A stretch of 12,323 nucleotides of DNA, taken from positions 1-12,323 of the forward strand of contig JAABTB010000033.1 of NCBI GenBank assembly GCA_011390085.1, given 5' to 3'. The DNA is from Desulfobacula sp. GTDB lineage: Bacteria > Desulfobacterota > Desulfobacteria > Desulfobacterales > Desulfobacteraceae. A program made the translations under genes and the position numbers. Numbering within the stretch: position 1 is the first letter of the stretch; the number at the start of each line of letters is the position of its first letter. Of the stretch, positions 3,952-12,323 are shown in pieces. The notes below the pieces were generated by a model that saw only the letters and a program-made list of their open reading frames with translations, searched no databases and was not told where the DNA came from.

Positions 3952-3980
3952 GACACGGAGAAACTTTTCTTCTCCGTGTC
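3952..3980. terminator. Shared hairpin between convergent helicase and STAS-like genes
   Basis: A perfect 11-bp inverted repeat, GACACGGAGAA (3952-3962) and TTCTCCGTGTC (3970-3980), with a 7-nt loop. A T5 tract follows on the plus strand only after eight bases (3989-3993). On the minus strand the hairpin is followed by A-rich sequence. Its right arm touches the stop codon of the minus-strand gene. Probably ends both transcripts, though the U tracts are imperfect. Confidence 0.65.
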
Positions 3981-4297
3981 TATCCCTCTTTTTCCGAATG
4001 AGTTACGATATAAATAATTTTTTCAATAACATAATTATTTTGAGAGACCAGGTTGATTTTTTCCAGAATTTTTTCTTTTCCATGTTTTCGGGCCAGGACA
4101 CCGAACACCTCGTCCAGGAAATCCCAGGGATACCCGAGAACACCGTCCAGTTCGATATTGATCCTGTCATAGAGATCAATAGATCCTTCCAGGAAGCGCA
4201 TCCTGAAATCCTCACCTGAAAATTCGGCTATTTTTTTCTCCCTGCCACCGACATACCGGTTAAATTCATTTTTTATATTTATCGTAAGCTCTTTCAT
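3980..4297 (-). CDS. STAS-like (DUF4325-like) small protein
   Basis: A 105-residue cytoplasmic protein starting at ATG 4297, with AAGGA a few bases upstream; the frame is open to 4348, but that extension lacks a ribosome binding site. The segment INIELDGVLGYPWDFLDEVF followed by GVLARKHGKEKILEKI resembles the STAS-like fold known as DUF4325, in which a buried beta strand (V/I-x-L-D-G) leads to a GY..FL.E.FG helix. These proteins are distant relatives of anti-anti-sigma STAS proteins and are often encoded beside regulatory or ATP-binding partners. Here the partner is the acetyltransferase 72 nt upstream on the same strand, so both probably share the sigma-54 promoter at 5390-5405. The role is unknown. 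Family assignment is by pattern memory, not search. Confidence 0.75.
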   Translation of the reverse strand: MKELTINIKNEFNRYVGGREKKIAEFSGEDFRMRFLEGSIDLYDRINIELDGVLGYPWDFLDEVFGVLARKHGKEKILEKINLVSQNNYVIEKIIYIVTHSEKEG

Positions 4298-4369
4298 TAT
4301 TCCTTTTTTTTCGAATAGCGATTTTAAAAGACAGACCCTTTGGAACAAAAAGGCAAAAAATACCTGAGA

Positions 4370-5326
4370 TTATGCGCAGGCGGCTGATGCTTCCCGGAAC
4401 TCCAAACACGTCCTTTGCTTTTCAAGGCAAAGTTCATACAAAGGGATGGGCGTCAGATGGAACCGTTCCTTCCAGTTAAAATCACCACAGAGAAAATCAA
4501 CGAGTTCAAGTTTCTGACGGCAGGCCCACTCCATATGATGGAGATTGATGAGTTTGGCAACTCCGGGGAATTCCCGGTTGGTTCCCCCGGCCAGAAGCGT
4601 ATAGGATTTCTGCCAGAGGGCGCCCATATCGATGGCTGCAACAGCGCCGTCAATAAGAACCGTTGTAATCCGGAGCATCCCGAATTTTTCAAGAAACCCT
4701 GCAAGCTTTAAAAAAGAATGATGAAACCGCAAATCACTGAAAAATGAATTCTCACCAAAACAGTCCCTGTTCATTTGAAGCATATGCTCTATATCTTCAA
4801 ACCGGTTAAACCTGAAACGGATATTCTTTTCTTCGAACTTCCTGAGGTCGGCCCTGAGCTTTTTTCTGAATTTGCCTGTGAAAGACTGTTGGTAATTCTC
4901 AAAGGAATACCCATACTGTCCGGGCAGGAAAATATAGCCCATCTCATCGGTCCGGATCAGGTCCGATACCCCCTTCAACGAATTTCCATTGAGATATCGA
5001 AGATGAAGGGGGCCTGGAACGGAATCGATAAGCCTGTCAAAAATTTCCGGGGTCCCGGCGATGATCCTGTTCTGCTCCAGCCAGGTTTTTCCGCGCCAGG
5101 TTTCTCCGGGAAACTGCAAATATTTTTCTTCTTCTTCATTCCAGCACAATGCCAGAAATCCCACTGCCTTATTGTTGTCCTCGACCACATGAAAACTTAA
5201 AGGCCTGGAATATGTATCATGAAAACAGGAACGGACCTGCCAGAGATCAAAAAATCCTTTGACCGGCCACAATTTATTCCATATGAATTTACATTCGTCA
5301 GGGTCTTCATATATTGTGGTCTTCAT
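4370..5326 (-). CDS. GNAT-fold acetyltransferase, BioF2/FemAB-like (PF13480 type)
   Basis: A 318-residue soluble protein starting at ATG 5326 (AGGTG upstream). The middle contains the FRKKLRADLRKFEEKNIRF segment (about residues 152-170) that opens PF13480-type domains. It continues with GENSFFSDLRFHHSFLKLA, a strand ITTVLIDGAVAAIDMGALW and a YTLLAGGTNREFPGVAKLIN segment, as in FemAB-like GNAT enzymes that transfer acyl or aminoacyl groups. The N-terminal ~130 residues hold the first, degenerate half of the fold. The substrate cannot be read from sequence; related enzymes act on polysaccharide, peptidoglycan or small molecules. It is first in an operon with the STAS-like gene, is divergent from the EBP1 gene, and has its own sigma-54 promoter, IHF site and distal inverted repeat. 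Confidence 0.8.
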   Translation of the reverse strand: MKTTIYEDPDECKFIWNKLWPVKGFFDLWQVRSCFHDTYSRPLSFHVVEDNNKAVGFLALCWNEEEEKYLQFPGETWRGKTWLEQNRIIAGTPEIFDRLIDSVPGPLHLRYLNGNSLKGVSDLIRTDEMGYIFLPGQYGYSFENYQQSFTGKFRKKLRADLRKFEEKNIRFRFNRFEDIEHMLQMNRDCFGENSFFSDLRFHHSFLKLAGFLEKFGMLRITTVLIDGAVAAIDMGALWQKSYTLLAGGTNREFPGVAKLINLHHMEWACRQKLELVDFLCGDFNWKERFHLTPIPLYELCLEKQRTCLEFREASAACA

Positions 5327-5389
5327 AAAAACACCTATTGTCTGAGCGTTACATTAATACAAGAAAATGTTCATGTATGGCCCGACATA

Positions 5390-5405
5390 AGCATAACCTG
5401 TGCCA
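5390..5405 (-). promoter_or_regulatory. Sigma-54 (-24/-12) promoter of the acetyltransferase/STAS-like operon
   Basis: On the minus strand the 16-mer TGGCACAGGTTATGCT matches the sigma-54 consensus TGGCACGnnnnTTGCW except at two positions (A for G, A for T). The invariant GG and GC have the required 10-nt separation. Predicted +1 is near 5379, giving a leader of about 53 nt to the ATG at 5326. A consensus IHF site lies upstream and the divergent neighbour encodes a sigma-54 activator, both supporting a real promoter. Confidence 0.82.
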
Positions 5406-5444
5406 TTTTAAAAAACAGACCCGAATAATAAATAATTTATGTAT

Positions 5445-5457
5445 AATCAACAGGTTA
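5445..5457 (+). promoter_or_regulatory. IHF binding site upstream of the sigma-54 promoter
   Basis: AATCAACAGGTTA matches the IHF consensus WATCAANNNNTTR at every specified position. It lies in AT-rich DNA at about -66 to -78 relative to the predicted start at 5379. That is the usual place for IHF to bend DNA between an enhancer and a -24/-12 promoter. Confidence 0.65.
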
Positions 5458-5479
5458 ATCCCTATGAACATTTTTAACG

Positions 5480-5507
5480 CAGTAAAAATTATCGCAATCT
5501 TTTACTG
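5480..5507. promoter_or_regulatory. Inverted repeat, candidate enhancer (upstream activating sequence)
   Basis: CAGTAAAA (5480-5487) and TTTTACTG (5500-5507) are perfect 8-bp inverted arms separated by 12 nt, so the half-site centres are 20 bp apart, about two helical turns. The element lies at about -101 to -128 from the predicted sigma-54 start and just beyond the IHF site, the expected position for dimeric EBP binding. It lies between the two divergent genes, so EBP1 could bind here. Which EBP binds is unknown. Confidence 0.5.
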
Positions 5508-5606
5508 ATCTCCAACAAAAAGGTATTTTTAATCCGAATTATCCCAGATTCCACGGAAAGATCCGAAAATTCAATGGGTTTATGAAGGGAAACTCTCATT
5601 TTTTGC

Positions 5607-5635
5607 TTGGCCTGCGCCCAATTTTAGCGTATACA
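5607..5635 (+). promoter_or_regulatory. Candidate sigma-70-type promoter for the EBP1 gene
   Basis: TTGGCC (5607-5612) and TATACA (5630-5635) are separated by 17 nt; each is a 4/6 match to the -35 and -10 consensus. The predicted start near 5642 would place the palindrome at 5661-5674 inside the leader. Weak prediction. Confidence 0.22.
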
Positions 5636-5660
5636 TGGACTGTCCGGCAATTGAATTTGT

Positions 5661-5674
5661 GGTAAATTATTACC
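5661..5674. repeat. Short palindrome just before the EBP1 ribosome binding site
   Basis: GGTAA (5661-5665) and TTACC (5670-5674) are inverted arms around ATTA. The position, between the likely promoter and the GAGG ribosome binding site, would suit an operator or a small RNA stem. Function unknown. Confidence 0.35.
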
Positions 5675-5690
5675 GATAGAGGAAAAAATC

Positions 5691-7115
5691 ATGCTCATCA
5701 GGCTCGTCTGTGCCGTTAAAGACAAGAAACTCCATGCAGATCTTGAAAAAAGGCTCTCTACCTTTGATGTTCAATTAAAAATGTGCGGCCGGCAGAAAGC
5801 CCCCTGGCAGGATCTGGTCAGAAGTTGCGGTGATGTTTTTGTGGTCAGCAAAGGCCTGATTCCCAAACCCATTGAATCCAGCGTGGGGATGCTCAACAAC
5901 CTGCCGGAAAAACCCACCACCATTATCCTCCATGACCGGGAATCCTCCGAAGAGCATGCCAATCTCCTGGCCTCGGGCGCCGATGTGGTTCTATACACCG
6001 GGATTTCCATGGACAGCCTGGTGGAAGCCATTGAAAGCACCATCGAATCCCGGCGGCAATTAAATTTTGTGGACCGGTTTGACCAGCGGGGCAGGATCAA
6101 ACCCAAAATCAGCGATTTTATTTCAAACAGCGAGGACATGCAGCTCTTCCTGGATGAGGTCCAGCAGGTGGTGTCAACGGATTCCACCCTCCTGCTGCTG
6201 GGGGAGACCGGCGTGGGAAAGGAACATCTTTCCAAAGCCATCCATGCCGAGAGTCACCGTTCAAAGGGACCTTTCATCGCCATCAATATGGCGGCCATTC
6301 CCGAACCCCTCATGGAAAGCGAACTCTTCGGCCACGAGCAGGGTGCGTTTACCGGAGCCGTCCGTTCCCGCAGGGGGGCCTTTGAACTGGCCCACGGGGG
6401 AACCATTTTCCTGGATGAAATCGGTGAAATGCCCATGCACATGCAGTCCAAGCTTCTCCGGGTGCTTCAGGATTTTGAATTCACGCCCGTGGGTGGAGAA
6501 ACCTCCATCTGGGTGGATGTCCGGGTGATTGCAGCCACAAACAAAGACCTGGAAGAAGAAATTTCAAAGGGCCGTTTCCGCCAGGACCTCTATTACCGGC
6601 TGGGCGTCATCACCCTGACCCTGCCGCCCTTAAGAAAACGCAAGGAAGATATTCCGGCCATGGCCAACCATTTTTTAAATGTGTACAGCAAAAAATTGGG
6701 CCGTGAGATTAACCGGTTCTCCCCGGAAGCCGTCGAAACCCTTTGCGCTTACAGTTGGCCGGGAAATATCCGGGAGCTGATCAATGTGATTGAAAGAGCC
6801 ATTATTCTATGCAAATCCGACACCATTTCTCCCATTGATCTTCCCAGCACCTTCCAGACCGGCCCCACGGCATCGTTAGGCCTGCTGGAAAGCAAAGACC
6901 TGGAAATGAATGCCTGGAAGACCAAAACCCTTGCCGAAGTCAGGGATCTGGTGCTGAACCGGATTGAAAAAAAATATCTTGAAATGATACTTGAAAAAAC
7001 CGAAGGGAAAATCGGGGATGCTGCTAAAATAGCCGGTATTCACCCCAGAGGACTATATGGGAAAATGAAAAAACTGGGATTGGATAAAGCAAGCTACAAA
7101 CCGCGGAACACTTAG
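5691..7115 (+). CDS. Sigma-54-dependent transcriptional activator (EBP1) with a receiver-like N-terminus lacking the phospho-acceptor
   Basis: A 474-residue NtrC-class activator; ATG 5691 follows GAGG at 5679-5682. Residues 1-125 look like a receiver fold (alternating strands and helices, ending GADVVLYTGISMDSLVEAIES). However, the strand that should carry the phospho-Asp reads DVFVVSKG, and the first strand (LIRLVCAVKD) lacks the paired acidic residues. The AAA+ domain is complete: Walker A GETGVGKE (171-178), ELFGHEQGAFTGA with GAFTGA at 218-223 for sigma-54 contact, Walker B IFLDE (239-243), and FRQDLYYRL (about 296-304). The C-terminus (about 422-466) is a Fis-type helix-turn-helix. It is divergent from the acetyltransferase/STAS-like operon and upstream of a second sigma-54 promoter, so either or both are candidate targets. 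Confidence 0.95.
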   Translation: MLIRLVCAVKDKKLHADLEKRLSTFDVQLKMCGRQKAPWQDLVRSCGDVFVVSKGLIPKPIESSVGMLNNLPEKPTTIILHDRESSEEHANLLASGADVVLYTGISMDSLVEAIESTIESRRQLNFVDRFDQRGRIKPKISDFISNSEDMQLFLDEVQQVVSTDSTLLLLGETGVGKEHLSKAIHAESHRSKGPFIAINMAAIPEPLMESELFGHEQGAFTGAVRSRRGAFELAHGGTIFLDEIGEMPMHMQSKLLRVLQDFEFTPVGGETSIWVDVRVIAATNKDLEEEISKGRFRQDLYYRLGVITLTLPPLRKRKEDIPAMANHFLNVYSKKLGREINRFSPEAVETLCAYSWPGNIRELINVIERAIILCKSDTISPIDLPSTFQTGPTASLGLLESKDLEMNAWKTKTLAEVRDLVLNRIEKKYLEMILEKTEGKIGDAAKIAGIHPRGLYGKMKKLGLDKASYKPRNT

Positions 7116-7128
7116 GATAAACGATGAC

Positions 7129-7146
7129 ACAGGATGTCCTGTTTTT
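7129..7146 (+). terminator. Short hairpin plus T tract after the EBP1 gene
   Basis: The palindrome ACAGGA-TG-TCCTGT (7129-7142) begins 13 nt after the EBP1 stop and is followed by a T5 tract (7142-7146). As RNA it would fold with a 4-nt loop and a 5-bp stem, which is short for a terminator. It could instead be a protein-binding palindrome for the sigma-54 promoter downstream. Confidence 0.45.
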
Positions 7147-7184
7147 ATGAATTCATTCGCCCGCATTCTTCACAAAGCAATAAA

Positions 7185-7238
7185 AATGCCAGGCCTTCAT
7201 TTCCCTTATATCCGGGGCTCAAGGGCCTTATCGGCATT
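7185..7238. repeat. Interrupted inverted repeat upstream of the second sigma-54 promoter
   Basis: AATGCC (7185-7190) pairs with GGCATT (7233-7238), and the adjoining AGGCC (7191-7195) with GGCCT (7224-7228), leaving a TATC bulge. An alternative inner pairing is CCCTT (7203-7207) with AAGGG (7221-7225). It lies about 40-90 bp before the -24 element, where regulators or DNA-bending proteins would bind. No consensus IHF site was found in the 7116-7274 stretch, which contains no gene. Confidence 0.35.
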
Positions 7239-7274
7239 GGGTGAAAACAATATCTGCCATGGATTCGACCGCTC

Positions 7275-7290
7275 TGGCGCATGATTTGCA
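7275..7290 (+). promoter_or_regulatory. Sigma-54 (-24/-12) promoter of the 80-aa protein gene
   Basis: TGGCGCATGATTTGCA matches TGGCACGnnnnTTGCW at all but two positions (G for A, A for G), with GG at 7276-7277 and GC at 7288-7289 correctly spaced. Predicted +1 is near 7301, only 14 nt before the ATG at 7315, so the ribosome binding site AGGGA (7303-7307) sits at the extreme 5' end of the transcript. Confidence 0.82.
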
Positions 7291-7314
7291 TTATTTATCC
7301 CCAGGGATAAACTT

Positions 7315-7557
7315 ATGAGCAAAGCACAGACCGTCATTAATGGTATTATTATTCCTTCAGAATGGAATGAAAAAGGGGAAACTCAGAACATTGCCATTGT
7401 CACATTTGATGAGGACACATTTCTGATTGCCGACAACAATCATGCAAGAACCCTGATGAATTCTCTGAGGAAAACCGTAACCCTCTCGGGAAAGGTATCC
7501 ATGAAGGGCATCCAGAAGGAAATCCGTATTTCCAAATTTCAGATCCATGAACCCTAA
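7315..7557 (+). CDS. Small protein of unknown function (80 aa), sigma-54-controlled
   Basis: A soluble 80-residue protein starting at ATG 7315, with AGGGA at 7303-7307. No signal peptide or membrane helix is visible. The sequence alternates short beta-like segments (VINGIIIP, NIAIVTFD, TFLIAD, KTVTLSGKVS, EIRISKFQI) around one helix-like stretch (NHARTLMNSLRK). That suggests a small beta barrel such as an OB-type fold; this is inference from pattern only. I do not recognise a named family. It is preceded by a near-consensus -24/-12 promoter, lies between two EBP genes, and is followed after 51 nt by a lysine-rich mini-protein. That context makes it a likely direct output of one of the EBPs. 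Confidence 0.82.
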   Translation: MSKAQTVINGIIIPSEWNEKGETQNIAIVTFDEDTFLIADNNHARTLMNSLRKTVTLSGKVSMKGIQKEIRISKFQIHEP

Positions 7558-7564
7558 ATCATCA

Positions 7565-7586
7565 GATACCCTTTTTAACCGGTATC
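7565..7586 (+). other. Intercistronic hairpin between the two small genes
   Basis: GATACC (7565-7570) pairs with GGTATC (7581-7586) across a 10-nt loop, 8 nt after the stop of the 80-aa gene. No T tract follows the stem, so it is not a clear terminator. It could stabilise the upstream message or set relative expression of the lysine-rich gene. Confidence 0.4.
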
Positions 7587-7608
7587 CGTCTAATCAGGAG
7601 GAGCTAAG

Positions 7609-7725
7609 ATGTCAAAAGAAAGAAATGCCAAAAAAGATGAAAAAAAGAAACCTGCAAAAACCTTGAAAGAGAAAAAAAAGGAAAAGCTTGAAAAGAAAAA
7701 GGGGAAAACCGGCCTTATAGACTAA
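7609..7725 (+). CDS. Lysine-rich 38-aa mini-protein
   Basis: ATG 7609 to TAA 7725 encodes 38 residues, 16 of them lysine. The start is preceded by an excellent ribosome binding site, AGGAGGAG, at 7597-7603 with 5-nt spacing. The N-terminus reads MSKERNAKKDEKKKPAKTLK and the C-terminus is a non-charged GLID. The protein would be a highly basic, probably helical or disordered polypeptide, suggestive of nucleic-acid or ribosome contact; that is inference. I recall similarly short proteins beginning SKERN.KK and rich in KKKPA and KEK in other proteobacteria, but cannot verify this here. It lies 51 nt after the 80-aa gene and may be co-transcribed with it. Confidence 0.72.
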   Translation: MSKERNAKKDEKKKPAKTLKEKKKEKLEKKKGKTGLID

Positions 7726-7744
7726 CAGCAATGACCCATCCCCT

Positions 7745-7769
7745 GTGCTCCCTCTTACAAAGGGGGCAC
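7745..7769 (+). terminator. Hairpin after the lysine-rich gene (possible transcript end)
   Basis: GTGCTCCC (7745-7752) pairs with GGGGGCAC (7762-7769), eight pairs including one G-U, around a 9-nt loop. It begins 20 nt after the stop codon. There is no following T tract, so intrinsic termination is uncertain; transcript-end protection is also possible. Confidence 0.4.
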
Positions 7770-7783
7770 GTTACACACCAAGG

Positions 7784-7823
7784 GGAACCCGTATCATCAT
7801 CCCACCCGCCGGATTGGGGTTCC
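7784..7823 (+). other. Second hairpin in the 253-nt intergenic region before EBP2
   Basis: GGAACCC (7784-7790) is complementary to GGGTTCC (7817-7823) across 26 nt. An alternative pairing joins AAGGGG (7780-7785) with CCCCTT (7827-7832). The 7726-7978 stretch has no convincing gene; it holds the two hairpins, a candidate promoter and a cluster of AGCCT/AGGCT pentamers. Confidence 0.35.
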
Positions 7824-7882
7824 AGGCCCCTTACCTGAGCAAAATGGCCGCCCTTAACCAGAGATATTCAAGGTAGTTTATA

Positions 7883-7911
7883 TTGACACCATAGCCTGTT
7901 ACTGATACTAG
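7883..7911 (+). promoter_or_regulatory. Candidate sigma-70-type promoter for the EBP2 gene
   Basis: A perfect TTGACA (7883-7888) lies in AT-rich DNA. Possible -10 boxes are TACTAG (7906-7911, 17-nt spacer, 3/6) or GATACT (7904-7909, 15-nt spacer, 4/6). The strong -35 and intergenic position support it; the -10 is poor, which would fit an activated or weak promoter. Confidence 0.4.
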
Positions 7912-7964
7912 TAGCCTTAATTTCAGCCTGATTCCCGTTATTCTGAAAAGGCTTAATAAAGGCT
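7893..7964. repeat. Cluster of AGCCT/AGGCT pentamers upstream of EBP2
   Basis: AGCCT occurs at 7893-7897, 7913-7917 and 7925-7929, and its inverse AGGCT at 7949-7953 and 7960-7964. The last pair forms a direct repeat AAGGCTT-AATA-AAGGCTT with 11-bp period. The first three are spaced 20 and 12 bp, near helical phasing. The cluster overlaps the candidate promoter and leader, so it may be an operator array. Function unproven. Confidence 0.35.
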
Positions 7965-7978
7965 TTTGAACTGTTACC

Positions 7979-9376
7979 ATGAGAGACATTCTGGTTCTAT
8001 CCAACCGGGCAAATGAGTTTGATTTGATTTCCCAGGTGGTTTCCAAAACCCGCAAGACAAAATATGCAAAAGACATTGAAACTGCCGTTGCATTGCATCA
8101 GAAATTCCCCTTTGACCTTATCATTGCAGATCTCAAACTTCTGGAGCAGACCCAGGGAATCAATGCCGCAAACTTTCTGAAAAACCCTTTTACAAAGATC
8201 AATTCCTTTGTTCAGTTTGTCATCCTCTGCCCCAAGGAAGAGGTTGAAAAGGCTGTAAAAGCCGTAAATGACGGGGCAGCCGGGTATCTTACCTATCCCA
8301 TTGAAGAAAATGAGGTCCGACTCCTGTTGGATTCACTGGACAGGAGCCTTGTAAGGGATTTTGAGCTGGACTATTTAAGGGACCATTTCTGGAAAACGGA
8401 ATGGCTTGAAATCATCCGGTCAAAAAACCCGAGGATGAAGAAAATCTATGAGAGCATCCGGTCGGTCTCCCCGACCATTGCCACCGTTCTTTTGCTCGGG
8501 GATACGGGGACCGGAAAAGGGATGCTGGCAAGACTTGTTCACTGGCACAGCCAGCGGTCTGAAGAGCCGTTTATTGTCGTCCATTGCGGGGCTATCCCCG
8601 ACACCCTGATTGAAAGCGAACTCTTTGGCCATGAAAAAGGGGCTTTTACGGGGGCTGACCGCCGCAAACCCGGAAAATTTGAAATGGCCAGGGGGGGCAC
8701 TATTTTTCTGGATGAAATCGGAACCATTACCGCCTCAGCCCAGATTAAACTGCTCCAGATCCTTCAGGACGGAACCTTCTCCCGGCTCGGGGGCACAACC
8801 CTCATGAACTCCGATGTCAGGATCATCGCCGCCACCAATGCAGACCTGACCAGCCTAGTGCAGAACGGCAGCTTCCGGAAGGACCTGTATTACCGGCTCA
8901 ATATCTTTCCCATAGAGATCCCCCTGCTTAAGGAGCGCCTGGAAGACCTGCCCAACCTGACGGATATTTTTTTAAAAAAGCTCAATGCAAAATACGGAAA
9001 GGGCATTACCGGCCTTCACCCTTCAGTGATCGAAGGCTTTCAGCAATATGAATGGCCCGGCAATATCCGGGAACTTGAAAATATCTTGGAACGAGCCTAT
9101 ATTCTTGAAACCTCTTCCATATTGTCAGCCCAGAATTTCCCTCCGGAAATGGTCAAACAAAGCGAGACCTATCCCCTGTCCGAAAGGAACCCCTCTTCCC
9201 TGGCCCAGGCAAGGCAGATCGCAGTGGAAGCATTTGAAAAATCCTATCTGACGGCGCTCCTGGGCCAGACAAAAGGGAAAATCAACCTGGCGGCACAAAA
9301 GGCAGACATCACCACCCGCCAATTGAACCGGCTGATTACCCGGTATGGGCTGAATAAAAAGAATTTCAAGCGATAA
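7979..9376 (+). CDS. Sigma-54-dependent response-regulator-like activator (EBP2) with degenerate receiver domain
   Basis: A 465-residue NtrC-class protein. The start ATG 7979 fits the receiver's first strand, although no good ribosome binding site precedes it. The receiver (1-120) keeps the acceptor-position Asp (IIADLKLL, D51). It lacks the acidic pair after strand 1 (VLSNRANEF), and the conserved Lys of the K-P motif is Tyr (LTYP, Y106). The AAA+ domain is intact: Walker A GDTGTGKG (173-180), [13 protein letters not shown] with GAFTGA at 220-225, Walker B IFLDE (241-245), FRKDLYYRL (about 298-306). A Fis-type helix-turn-helix ends the protein (about 419-465). It resembles EBP1 in layout but is clearly diverged. 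No histidine kinase gene lies beside it. Targets are unknown; the two sigma-54 promoters in this window are candidates. Confidence 0.95.
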
Positions 9377-9397
9377 AAAGACATCTTATGTCCTTTT
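9376..9397 (+). terminator. Short terminator after the EBP2 gene
   Basis: Starting on the last base of the stop codon, AAAAGACAT (9376-9384) pairs with ATGTC-C-TTTT (9388-9397), one bulged C, with a CTT loop and a T4 tract. It is short but correctly placed. Confidence 0.5.
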
Positions 9398-9520: not shown

Positions 9521-12323
9521 CTAACCCACAGGTGACGGTTCTTTTTTATCCGAAAGGCTGAACTCCACAAGGCTCTTGATCTCATCCTCAGGATCAAGGT
9601 GGTTGAGTTTGACCATTTCAAAGCCGTCTATCTCGATACATACCGTACCGGCTCTATCCGCAAGGGTCAGGTGATAGGTGTTGGTTTCCTCACCTGAAAC
9701 CACTTTTTGGGTGATACAAAAATAAGGGGTATTTTTTTCAACATCTTTATAAAATTTCAGGGATTTGATTTTAAAGGGCAGGACTGTTCTGGACGTTGTA
9801 AAAAACTCCAAAAGACCGCCGGTCTGGAACATGGCGTCCACCAGAACGGGAGCCGCCACAAAACCAGGCTTTGTTACCCCTTTGAAAAATTCTTTTCCGC
9901 TCCTGTCTTCCACGGTGGTGATCAAGGTTTCTCCATCAAAGGAATGGATGTCCCGGATGGTCCCAAAAAGACCGAACATGAACAATCGCCGGGGATGGTA
10001 CACCAGGGTTTCCACATCCCCCTCAAAGGAAACCGGGTGGAACGGCGGCAATTTTATTTTCCGGGATTTCAAGGGTTTGTCCTCAAACCGGTAGCAGCCT
10101 TCATAATGAAGTTTCGGTTCTCCCATGACAAGGCCTTGCGGGTTCCTGAAAAGCGAGGTGATCCGGCAATTCAGAAGCCCGTCCGCCTGTTTCTCCCCGG
10201 AAATGAGCAGTTCTTTGGGCCGCCCCTTGAGCAGTTTGATGGCATAGGGAATCTGAAAATCGGTCAATTCCACAAAATGCCTCTTATCCCCGGACAAGGA
10301 TTTTGCAACCTCTGCCATGGTTTCTATCCCTGTGGACCCGAGGAAAAGCGGCACGTCGCCCATGGTATGGTCATGGAGGAAAACATCCCTTTCAAGATCC
10401 AGCACCCTTGAATAGGTGCCGGCAGAAGCGGTTTTTTCCACGGGAGTATCCAGGAATGGGAATTCAGCATGTTGCGGATCACCCAGAAGGCCGTCCCTGT
10501 CAAAAGAATAATCCAGACCGGAAAAAACCATTTCAGATTCCGTTCTATCCAGAAGATCCGCCATGAAGAATTTGACGCCCTGGTCCATGGGCAGAAACTG
10601 GATTCCCCTTTCTTCAAGTACGGCCTTAACCGTGGGGTTGGTGGCCATGCCCACCCCGCCCCAGGCCGTCCAGGCATAGACCTTGTAAGTCCGGTCCGGC
10701 CGGCGCTGTTTCTGGCGGAACAGGGTCTTGCCAAGATAGTCATTGGCTGCCGTATAATCCACCTGGCCTTCATTGCCGAACCTTGCTGTAACCGATGAAA
10801 AGGTAAAGAAATACTTATACTCCCGGTCTTTAAAGGCAGCCAGAAGGTTTCTCATGCCCTTGACCTTGACATCCACCACCAGCTCAAAGGACCAGAGTTC
10901 CTTTTTGGCAATGAACTGGCTCATCTCCATGCCGGCGGCATGAAAAACCCCGTCAATCCGGTCATATTTGTCCACAGCCGCCTTTACCGCAGCGGCCTGG
11001 GTCACATCCACACAATTGTAATCCACCCGGACGCCTTGGGATTTCAGGAAATCAATATTGTCTATGGACTGACGAACCCGCAGGAGGCGATCCAGAGCCC
11101 GTTTGATTTCAACGGGTTTGACCCCGGGCATATCCTCCCTGAGTCTCGCCATGAGGTCGGCCCCGGTTGAGGCTTTGTCCAGGTATTTGGGATCAGTGCT
11201 GTAAATATCGTTGATATCCAGGATAATGAGGTTGACCTTATATTTTTCAACCACTTGCTTAAGGATCTCATAGGTGATTCCGCCGGCGCCGCCCGTGACC
11301 AGCAACGTGTCGTTATCCGAAATAATTCTTTGTGTTTTGTCGGCAATGGAGGGCTTCATGGAAAGGACATACCGCTTTTTATTCCTGTATCCCACCTCTA
11401 CCCCTGTGTCACCGGACAGAAGTTCATTGATGAAAAGATCAGTGAGGGCATTGATATTCTTTTTTGGATCTTTTCCCGAAAAATCAACTACCTTGACCAG
11501 GGTATCGGGCAATTCCTTGTTAACGGTTTTCAAAAGTCCGGCGAGCCCGCCAAACAGGGGATGGATACCACCACAACCGTCCATATAGGGAAAGACCACG
11601 GAATCAAAGGTAAGGGTCCCGATGAAACTGTCTTTTCGGTTAAAGGTGTCGAAAAGCGATTTGATGAGCACGAACACGGATTTGATGGTGGTGTTCAAAG
11701 CTTCGTCCGAATCCCCCTTCTCATCTTTTGCAGTAAAATAATAATCCAGGGATGACAGATGGATAAACCCGCTGATATCAGGATAGGCTTTTTTAAATTC
11801 CTCCACCTGCTTTTCCGTCTGTTTCACATCCGTGAGGTCAAAGGCAAAATCCGCATCTTTGCTGCCGATGGTTACGACCTCCCCGTCTTTTTCCCTGATC
11901 TTTTGAATGATTTTTTCTGCAAATCCATGACTGTCAAGGGACACCATGATTTTTTGGCCCTTAAAACCTGTTTTTAAAGGCTTGGGCATCTGTGTTTCCC
12001 TGGTCCTCACGATGAGGCGCTTGATGGGTGAAGCTGGGTCGGGAAATTCATCCCTTCCGGCAGACAACACCGGAGAATCGGTTTTCTGAACCATATCTCC
12101 GCTTTCATGGGAGTTATTTGACGCTTTGGGCTGCACCTGAACCGCTTCTGCCCGGCTGTTGATATAGTCGGCCAGCCTGGCAATGGTGTTCAGATCCCGG
12201 AGTTTTAAATCATCGGGGACGGAAAAACCAAAATGGGCAGCGATCTTGGCAAAAATCTCCACCTGTTTCACCGTATCGATTCCCAGGTCCGCCTCAAGAT
12301 CAAGGCCCTCTTCCAGCATATCG
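9521..12323 (-). CDS. Pfa/polyketide-type synthase subunit: ACP, ketoreductase and dehydratase-like domains, N-terminus beyond window
   Basis: The C-terminal ~934 residues are visible; the frame stays open through the right edge (the codon before M at 12319 is GAT), so the true start is outside. Positions count from that M. An acyl-carrier domain occupies about 1-55 (LDLEADLGIDTVKQVEIF), with Thr16 at the site usually held by the phosphopantetheinyl Ser. A low-complexity linker (about 58-100) follows, then a structural Rossmann half (about 120-325). The ketoreductase comes next: VTGGAGGI (about 340), GVFHAAGM, catalytic FSSVTARFG (about 508) and DYTAAND with Tyr near 521. The C-terminus resembles a double hot-dog dehydratase: HDHTMGDVP (about 650) and APVLVDAMFQTGG with Asp near 827. 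The layout suggests the beta-keto-processing end of a PfaA-like or related secondary lipid synthase. The product is unknown. Confidence 0.88.
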   Translation of the reverse strand, partial: DMLEEGLDLEADLGIDTVKQVEIFAKIAAHFGFSVPDDLKLRDLNTIARLADYINSRAEAVQVQPKASNNSHESGDMVQKTDSPVLSAGRDEFPDPASPIKRLIVRTRETQMPKPLKTGFKGQKIMVSLDSHGFAEKIIQKIREKDGEVVTIGSKDADFAFDLTDVKQTEKQVEEFKKAYPDISGFIHLSSLDYYFTAKDEKGDSDEALNTTIKSVFVLIKSLFDTFNRKDSFIGTLTFDSVVFPYMDGCGGIHPLFGGLAGLLKTVNKELPDTLVKVVDFSGKDPKKNINALTDLFINELLSGDTGVEVGYRNKKRYVLSMKPSIADKTQRIISDNDTLLVTGGAGGITYEILKQVVEKYKVNLIILDINDIYSTDPKYLDKASTGADLMARLREDMPGVKPVEIKRALDRLLRVRQSIDNIDFLKSQGVRVDYNCVDVTQAAAVKAAVDKYDRIDGVFHAAGMEMSQFIAKKELWSFELVVDVKVKGMRNLLAAFKDREYKYFFTFSSVTARFGNEGQVDYTAANDYLGKTLFRQKQRRPDRTYKVYAWTAWGGVGMATNPTVKAVLEERGIQFLPMDQGVKFFMADLLDRTESEMVFSGLDYSFDRDGLLGDPQHAEFPFLDTPVEKTASAGTYSRVLDLERDVFLHDHTMGDVPLFLGSTGIETMAEVAKSLSGDKRHFVELTDFQIPYAIKLLKGRPKELLISGEKQADGLLNCRITSLFRNPQGLVMGEPKLHYEGCYRFEDKPLKSRKIKLPPFHPVSFEGDVETLVYHPRRLFMFGLFGTIRDIHSFDGETLITTVEDRSGKEFFKGVTKPGFVAAPVLVDAMFQTGGLLEFFTTSRTVLPFKIKSLKFYKDVEKNTPYFCITQKVVSGEETNTYHLTLADRAGTVCIEIDGFEMVKLNHLDPEDEIKSLVEFSLSDKKEPSPVG

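Follow-up and report, generated by a model that had tools for sequence, protein, structure and literature searches.

Two sigma-54 modules adjoin on a Desulfobacula contig, one of them a predicted relic of a polyamine-linked operon

What do two neighbouring sigma-54 activators control, and do the genes beside them form one unit? The question is raised by a 12,323-nucleotide stretch of Desulfobacula sp. DNA (hereafter the window), which is the entire contig C231 (GenBank JAABTB010000033.1) of a metagenome-assembled genome (MAG) of 57% completeness. It holds an island made, from left to right, of a STAS-like gene (DUF4325), an Acetyltransf_6 gene (hereafter GNAT), a first activator (EBP1), an 80-aa gene (OB80), a 38-aa Lys-rich open reading frame (ORF) and a second activator (EBP2). 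The initial annotation had taken these six genes for a single self-contained regulon. We find that two sigma-54 modules meet in this island, and that they adjoin mainly in one Desulfobacula subclade. We favour, with moderate confidence, the reading that module A (EBP1 and GNAT) is what remains here of a split operon for sigma-54-controlled aminoacyl-polyamine synthesis, joined to module B (EBP2 and OB80).

Two comparisons were made. For the first, 58 genomes (numbered with G, that of the window included) were searched with OB80, EBP2 and GNAT, and 40 loci were fetched, one of them the window contig. The second was one GTDB scan with a GNAT alignment, which gave 126 relatives; the best 80 of the 126 loci were analysed, some from the same genomes as in the first comparison and several ending at a contig edge. 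Genes in the loci are ORFs matched by BLASTP to our own queries, “absent” meaning no match to the query in question, and “EBP2” meaning the best match among these queries rather than a placement in a tree.

Among the 40 loci, EBP1 and GNAT travel together in divergent orientation, and EBP2 and OB80 likewise travel together. In most relatives, GNAT belongs to an operon of SpeDC, GNAT, an ATP-grasp ligase and a pyridoxal-phosphate (PLP) decarboxylase, from which the window locus retains GNAT alone, with EBP1 and the promoter. Within 4 kb of GNAT, SpeDC was found in 74 of the 80 loci, the ATP-grasp gene in 69, the decarboxylase in 67 and EBP1 in 52; all four operon genes lay on one strand in 61 loci, with an identical gene order in 61/61. 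By record titles, the best 80 of the 126 loci come mostly from Desulfobacterota genera, deltaproteobacteria and proteobacteria, the other titles being Nitrospirae, Zixiibacteriota, Planctomycetota, Armatimonadota, Lentisphaerae and Sumerlaeota. The ATP-grasp gene occurs in 19 of the 58 genomes, namely the 20 with GNAT minus G033. This last genome has a broken operon copy (L106, ~7400-9177), with SpeDC and GNAT as pieces and EBP1 intact.

SpeDC is what ties the operon to polyamines. It is an AdoMet_dc protein by Pfam (80.3 bits, cut-off 25), and scores 32.1 against the AdoMet decarboxylase equivalog, below the cut-off of 75.65. Proteins of the SpeDC type can be ornithine decarboxylases, and the accessible text of PMC10407285 names catalytic Ser, His and Cys and diagnostic Gln, Thr, Phe and Tyr. 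All seven residues are present at fitting spacing in 73 of the 74 SpeDC proteins beside GNAT, which are predicted to be active decarboxylases and resemble in this the L-ornithine decarboxylases of that paper. The systems described there, as far as its accessible text goes, differ in that SpeDC feeds spermidine or homospermidine synthesis, and the window contig is without a SpeDC gene.

The case for sigma-54 control begins with promoters. Three sites in the window lie within one mismatch of TGGCACN5TTGCW, against a shuffle mean of 0.36, and 0/200 shuffles reach three (shuffles sample dinucleotide transitions and keep composition approximately; the -24/-12 consensus and scoring matrix were written for this analysis). 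At two mismatches, the 6 sites of the window show no excess over the 5.8 expected by chance. The sites before GNAT and OB80 had been recognised from the start, and the third, on the minus strand at 7176-7191, had been overlooked; it aims at no gene of the window. The window sites have the GG and GC of sigma-54 promoters at -24/-12 spacing, and their promoter activity is predicted. In the 52 EBP1 loci, where whole divergent regions (365-1088 bases) were scored, the best -24/-12 score was at least 12 in 47 and above 95% of shuffles in 49. For the 28 loci without EBP1, 500 bases before the first gene were scored, fewer at contig ends, and a score of at least 12 was reached in 4/26, two loci having too little upstream sequence. 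These four exceptions (L161, L171, L180 and L199) have at most 1017 bases before GNAT, the contig end cutting off the upstream part, and are thus too short to show EBP1. With sites in 47/52 against 4/26 loci, promoter and EBP1 go together. Operator-like palindromes with up to three mismatches from CGGTAAN4TTACCG lie at most 60 nt from the start of EBP1 in 28/52 loci, and the best palindrome of the divergent region is above 95% of shuffles in 32/52.

Both activators proved complete and carry GAFTGA, as had been claimed, with a sigma-54 AAA+ domain (PF00158) of 234.5 bits in EBP1 and 220.1 in EBP2 (cut-off 20.2). The Fis-type helix-turn-helix (HTH) scores 36.7 bits in EBP1, above the cut-off of 22, and 13.1 in EBP2, below it. 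By sequence, neither appears to have the phosphorylatable receiver of two-component response regulators: PF00072 reaches 27.8 bits in EBP2, below its cut-off of 30.2, and is unlisted for EBP1. At the EBP1 acceptor position, which we place at Ser53, 96% of 52 sequences have Ser (the window protein among them) and 4% have His; in EBP2, again by our own placement, Asp51 is kept in 90% of 39 sequences, and the conserved Lys and acidic pair are not. Because Ser occupies the presumed phosphate acceptor, EBP1 is expected to respond to a ligand or a protein partner rather than to a kinase. A scan of 10 main proteins showed no canonical sensor kinase, in agreement with the initial annotation. EBP1 and EBP2 resemble NtrC-type activators and their -24/-12 regulons in AAA+ domain, GAFTGA, -24/-12 sites and palindromic upstream sites, and differ from them in their pseudo-receivers and in the polyamine link of the target operon. 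The activators do adjoin -24/-12 promoters, as first noticed, and the conservation check showed gene pairs and promoters to be kept in relatives. That EBP1 drives the operon is strongly suggested by these sequence patterns.

In module B, an activator with EBP2 as best match is found within 6 kb of 45/53 OB80 matches, and 31/53 OB80 matches elsewhere have a -24/-12 site scoring at least 12, against 3.8% of random windows. OB80 was rightly singled out as a gene: it is without a Pfam family, yet belongs to a conserved one. Its matches in a sequence search of the PDB had E values of 0.69 or worse throughout, and its closest known counterparts are probably single-domain OB-fold proteins (SSB, PriB, NigD-like). 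In G016, the nearest relative of the window in this comparison, the module includes a dksA-like gene (119 aa, PF01258 44.4 bits). Against L069 (9326-9895), the window at 7116-7180 misses about half a kilobase with the whole dksA-like gene, and the -24/-12 promoter remains. The same MAG does have two dksA-like genes of lower similarity (41 and 31% identity), neither being the G016-type gene; the latter may have moved elsewhere in the genome, which the incompleteness of the MAG allows. Further copies of the EBP2-type site lie next to EBP2, OB80 or dksA-like genes in L069, L070, L071, L073, L074 and L101, with scattered matches elsewhere too. These patterns suggest that OB80 and the dksA-like gene are targets of EBP2.

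Might the two modules be neighbours by chance, EBP2-OB80 being unrelated to polyamines and the island not a functional unit? Among the 40 loci they adjoin in the window, G016, G020, G018 and G013 alone. Hundreds of kilobases separate them in G008 (taken as Desulfobacula toluolica), G034 (taken as Desulfospira joergensenii) and G044, and in G047 each is on a contig of its own, so that one six-gene regulon does not stand. The STAS-like gene argues against it as well: it is found in the window and G016 alone among the 40 loci, and in 1/80 of the later scan, again G016, and is by this distribution a local addition. Furthermore, in a set of 40 fetched OB80 loci, 35 are without a polyamine gene of the query set within 6 kb. 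Against chance, such a gene is present in the other 5 of this set and in 4/9 further loci outside the window's clade that came from the OB80 search of the first comparison, where about 2% of random 12-kb windows would hold one by a rough estimate that is no measured control. Moreover, Desulfarculus, Dethiosulfatarculus and Euphemobacter have EBP2-OB80 next to the SpeDC operon, and in another lineage (L142, 2645-8001) an EBP2 homologue (63%) and a dksA-like gene stand beside EBP1 and a full SpeDC operon, with OB80 not detected; these four come from a biased set. Since several other lineages have EBP2-like activators, OB80 or dksA-like genes next to polyamine genes, whether of the SpeDC operon or others, a functional link between modules A and B is likely, and mere neighbourhood, although the most serious of the alternatives, is unlikely.

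Sigma-54-controlled aminoacyl-polyamine synthesis may be pictured as follows. EBP1, as a dedicated activator without a phosphorylatable receiver, would bind GGTAA-N4-TTACC-type palindromes beside its own start and activate the divergent -24/-12 promoter of the SpeDC-GNAT-ATP-grasp-PLP decarboxylase operon, which often follows a Lys/Arg-rich mini-protein. SpeDC would turn L-ornithine into putrescine, GNAT would move an amino acid from an aminoacyl-tRNA onto an amine (putrescine or a derivative), and ligase and decarboxylase would complete an aminoacyl- or peptidyl-polyamine. In parallel, EBP2 would activate the -24/-12 promoters of OB80, which perhaps binds nucleic acids, and of the dksA-like gene missing here, the two modules answering related signals.

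A different product is conceivable. The nearest PDB protein to the ATP-grasp ligase is the L-amino acid ligase BL00235. For the PLP decarboxylase the highest score is with LysA (132.6 bits), short of the cut-off of 297.9, and the second highest is with the N-citrylornithine decarboxylase FslC, whose 88 bits are likewise short of a cut-off of 500; in the PDB, diaminopimelate decarboxylases come first, with the N-citrylornithine decarboxylase 7kh2 and BtrK close behind. Such likenesses would suit an operon making a siderophore-like or peptide natural product with putrescine as building block (like rhizoferrin or E-64 analogues), the island being its regulatory remnant. E-64-type compounds, according to the accessible text of PMC12568646, are built from an ATP-grasp product and putrescine; they offer a chemical precedent for the product proposed here and are not relatives. 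On the other side, the neighbour proteins scanned, a part of the recurrent ones, include no nonribosomal-peptide-synthetase-independent siderophore synthetase and no transporter, and occurrence across very different phyla suits a more basic metabolite. We consider this explanation, which overlaps with aminoacyl-polyamine synthesis, rather doubtful.

The assignment of GNAT as an acetyltransferase was borne out at the level of the Pfam family and probably not at that of function: its predicted model is closest in fold to the aminoacyl-tRNA-dependent transferases Sba18 and FemX, the top 11 rows of fold matches spanning 261-277 residues at 8-13% identity. GNAT thus shares with FemX/FemA, MprF and Sba18/Sbb17 the fold over this length, and is unlike them in this low identity and in its setting, which is with SpeDC and the decarboxylase and not with cell wall or lipid. 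Judged by fold alone, it is more probably a Fem-type aminoacyl-tRNA-dependent transferase than an acetyltransferase, and the usual label is probably wrong; the family counts 1155 relatives at E ≤ 1e-10, and among the 120 matches listed the named ones are mostly GNAT acetyltransferase or hypothetical. An ordinary acetyl-CoA-dependent acyltransferase, with an operon that acetylates or detoxifies polyamines under regulators sensing polyamine excess, seems improbable to us.

The mini-protein is a Lys/Arg-rich ORF, mostly of 50-80 aa, found by composition between promoter and SpeDC in 28/52 loci; a profile built from those 28 matches upstream of GNAT in 33/80 loci, training loci included. A Pfam scan of three members gave no match above cut-off. 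A homology with the 38-aa protein of the window was considered and rejected, the profile finding nothing in the window at E ≤ 1. In L077 (G049), the place of the usual mini-protein upstream of SpeDC is taken by an ORF of 73 aa whose two CxxC pairs look, by eye, like a zinc ribbon. Quite improbably, the mini-protein could be a scaffold or substrate to which the Fem-like enzyme adds amino acids from tRNA and the ligase attaches putrescine made by SpeDC, the decarboxylase finishing a polyamine-capped peptide, sigma-54-switched and independent of nonribosomal peptide synthetases; if true, such polyamine-peptides would form a new product class, served by a pseudo-receiver activator of their own and by a partner module of OB-fold and dksA-like proteins.

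How could GNAT have come to stand alone, in terms of aminoacyl-polyamine synthesis? Another contig of the same MAG (C470; L109, 4825-7692) carries, in this order, mini-protein, ATP-grasp ligase and PLP decarboxylase. In G016 and G020, and partly in G013, the neighbours of the ATP-grasp gene are the SpeD-SpeDC fusion gene and speE. The fusion next to speE matches the type that PMC10407285 describes for Desulfotignum phosphitoxidans. No standalone SpeDC was found at the window locus or in G016; the fusion protein of G016 has an intact SpeDC-type C-terminal motif and could supply putrescine. In the GNAT tree the window groups with G016, G020, G018 and G009 (0.96), and in the ATP-grasp tree C470 groups with G016, G020, the second cluster of G018 and G023/G015 (0.97), G009 being outside. 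Both kinds of GNAT occur in G018, a bin with 6% contamination. The simplest history would be two paralogous clusters, each losing what the other kept: the window copy would have kept EBP1, promoter and GNAT, and the other mini-protein, ligase and decarboxylase, beside the fusion and speE in G016 and G020.

Several observations weigh against this picture as a whole. The decarboxylase tree, in which C470, G016 and G013 are sister to G009, the second cluster of G018, G023 and G015, does not confirm the two-copy history, as G009 is among the second type (with a weakly supported placement) and C470 outside that group. No -24/-12 site scoring at least 12 was found on C470 or on the fetched G016 and G020 stretches with the relocated ligase-decarboxylase pair; two G013 stretches have one site each, the first lying within the speD fusion gene and the other ~2.9 kb past the decarboxylase. 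Here, therefore, GNAT alone would remain under EBP1. Sigma-54 control does not seem universal either, since the operon is mostly without the promoter where EBP1 is absent, and loci with an EBP2-like activator in place of EBP1 (L140, L143, L144, L191) reach a site score of 9.8 at most. The palindrome is not found everywhere, given the counts above, and SpeDC of L184 is without the catalytic pattern. As no PDB sequence was matched by the GNAT profile, tRNA dependence rests on a predicted model matched at low identity. Finally, the sequences do not settle which of the enzymes would couple which compounds, and regulation and binding are predicted.

Table 1. Features of the island and its edges in the window.
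Feature	Position	Strand	Evidence
Hairpin, 11-bp, probable terminator between convergent DEAD-box and STAS-like genes	3952..3980		Read from sequence; near-identical in G016; unlisted by terminator scan
STAS-like gene (DUF4325) of 105 aa, added in this lineage downstream of GNAT	3980..4297	-	PF14213 43.2 bits, cut-off 23
GNAT gene (318 aa) for a predicted aminoacyl-tRNA-dependent transferase of Fem type; only operon gene kept here	4370..5326	-	Acetyltransf_6 73.5 bits, cut-off 22
-24/-12 promoter TGGCACAGGTTATGCT of GNAT	5390..5405	-	One mismatch from TGGCACN5TTGCW
Candidate EBP1 operator GGTAA-N4-TTACC, 30 bp before EBP1	5661..5674		1 in window, 0 in 200 shuffles
EBP1, 474 aa, sigma-54 activator with pseudo-receiver	5691..7115	+	Sigma54_activat E = 7e-70
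Candidate EBP2 site GACACAGGATGTC	7126..7138		2 such sites in window, shuffle mean 0.07, 1/200 shuffles reach 2
-24/-12 promoter TGGCATTTTTATTGCT, orphaned (dksA-like gene absent)	7176..7191	-	One mismatch from TGGCACN5TTGCW; precedes dksA-like gene in G016, G020, G018
-24/-12 promoter TGGCGCATGATTTGCA of OB80	7275..7290	+	One mismatch from TGGCACN5TTGCW
OB80, 80-aa predicted OB-fold protein	7315..7557	+	Family in 79/291 genomes of class
38-aa Lys-rich mini-protein, probably co-transcribed with OB80	7609..7725	+	AGGAGG site; equal-length ORF in 4 relatives
EBP2, 465 aa, sigma-54 activator with degenerate receiver	7979..9376	+	Sigma54_activat E = 2e-65
GACATCTTATGTC, second candidate EBP2 site and/or terminator stem	9380..9392		Motif recurrence and shuffle test

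The remaining features are listed in Table 1. The STAS-like assignment was borne out by Pfam. Of the terminator-like hairpins said to bound the island, both can be read (3952-3980 and ~9376-9397); the terminator scan lists neither, and the right-hand hairpin doubles as a candidate activator site. Ratios of non-synonymous to synonymous substitution (dN/dS) between the window and G016 were 0.015 for EBP1, 0.065 for EBP2, 0.023 for OB80, 0.145 for GNAT, 0.076 for the STAS-like gene and, on few sites, 0.141 for the 38-aa ORF, and all these genes look maintained. The 38-aa ORF was also upheld against three relatives, with dN/dS of 0.11-0.21 on ~20 synonymous sites. The window contains no RNA family at gathering threshold and no tRNA. 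A defence system was considered and rejected: PADLOC, run on seven proteins, matches the two activators alone, through RtcR-type models over the AAA+/HTH part, the other five being unmatched. The flanks of the island are AIM24, an adenosine-specific kinase, a DEAD-box helicase and a polyketide synthase. The last (9521-12319) is a fragment with ketoreductase and dehydratase parts, weakly PfaA-like and truncated by the contig end; its versions in G016 and G018 are longer. S-adenosylmethionine synthetase and pantoate-beta-alanine ligase genes lie near EBP2 in G046 (L079, 4625-6769), with a related pair near OB80 in G057 (L081, from 908). A gene for an HU-type DNA-binding protein is found near EBP2 in G047 (L082, 7415-7687), a relative being near OB80 in G057 (L104).

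Desulfobacteria have the most enhancer-binding proteins according to the accessible part of PMC12316311, whose main text is without “sped” and “polyamine” and has “spermidine” once, for a transport protein. The main text of a Desulfovibrio vulgaris sigma-54 paper (PMC4641369) is without “spermidine”, “ornithine” and “decarboxylase”, and that of PMC10407285 without “ATP-grasp”, “acetyltransferase” and “sigma”. In the open-access literature searched, we recognised no description of the SpeDC-GNAT-ATP-grasp-PLP decarboxylase operon or of its sigma-54 control. Part of it may have been anticipated by a survey of 2009, which reportedly treated operons of ATP-grasp and GNAT amidoligases. The predicted pathway is widespread and apparently undescribed.

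An island of “acetyltransferase plus unknown proteins” thereby becomes a testable pathway in several phyla, for which SpeDC would be the biochemical entry point and Desulfobacula toluolica, Desulfospira joergensenii and Desulfobacter the cultured hosts. An enzyme class is proposed for a family of more than 1000 proteins, together with a candidate operator and promoter for its activator. Desulfobacteria have many orphan sigma-54 activators, and polyamine-linked roles are proposed here for two of them; reciprocal loss is suggested as a route by which one pathway may be spread over two loci.

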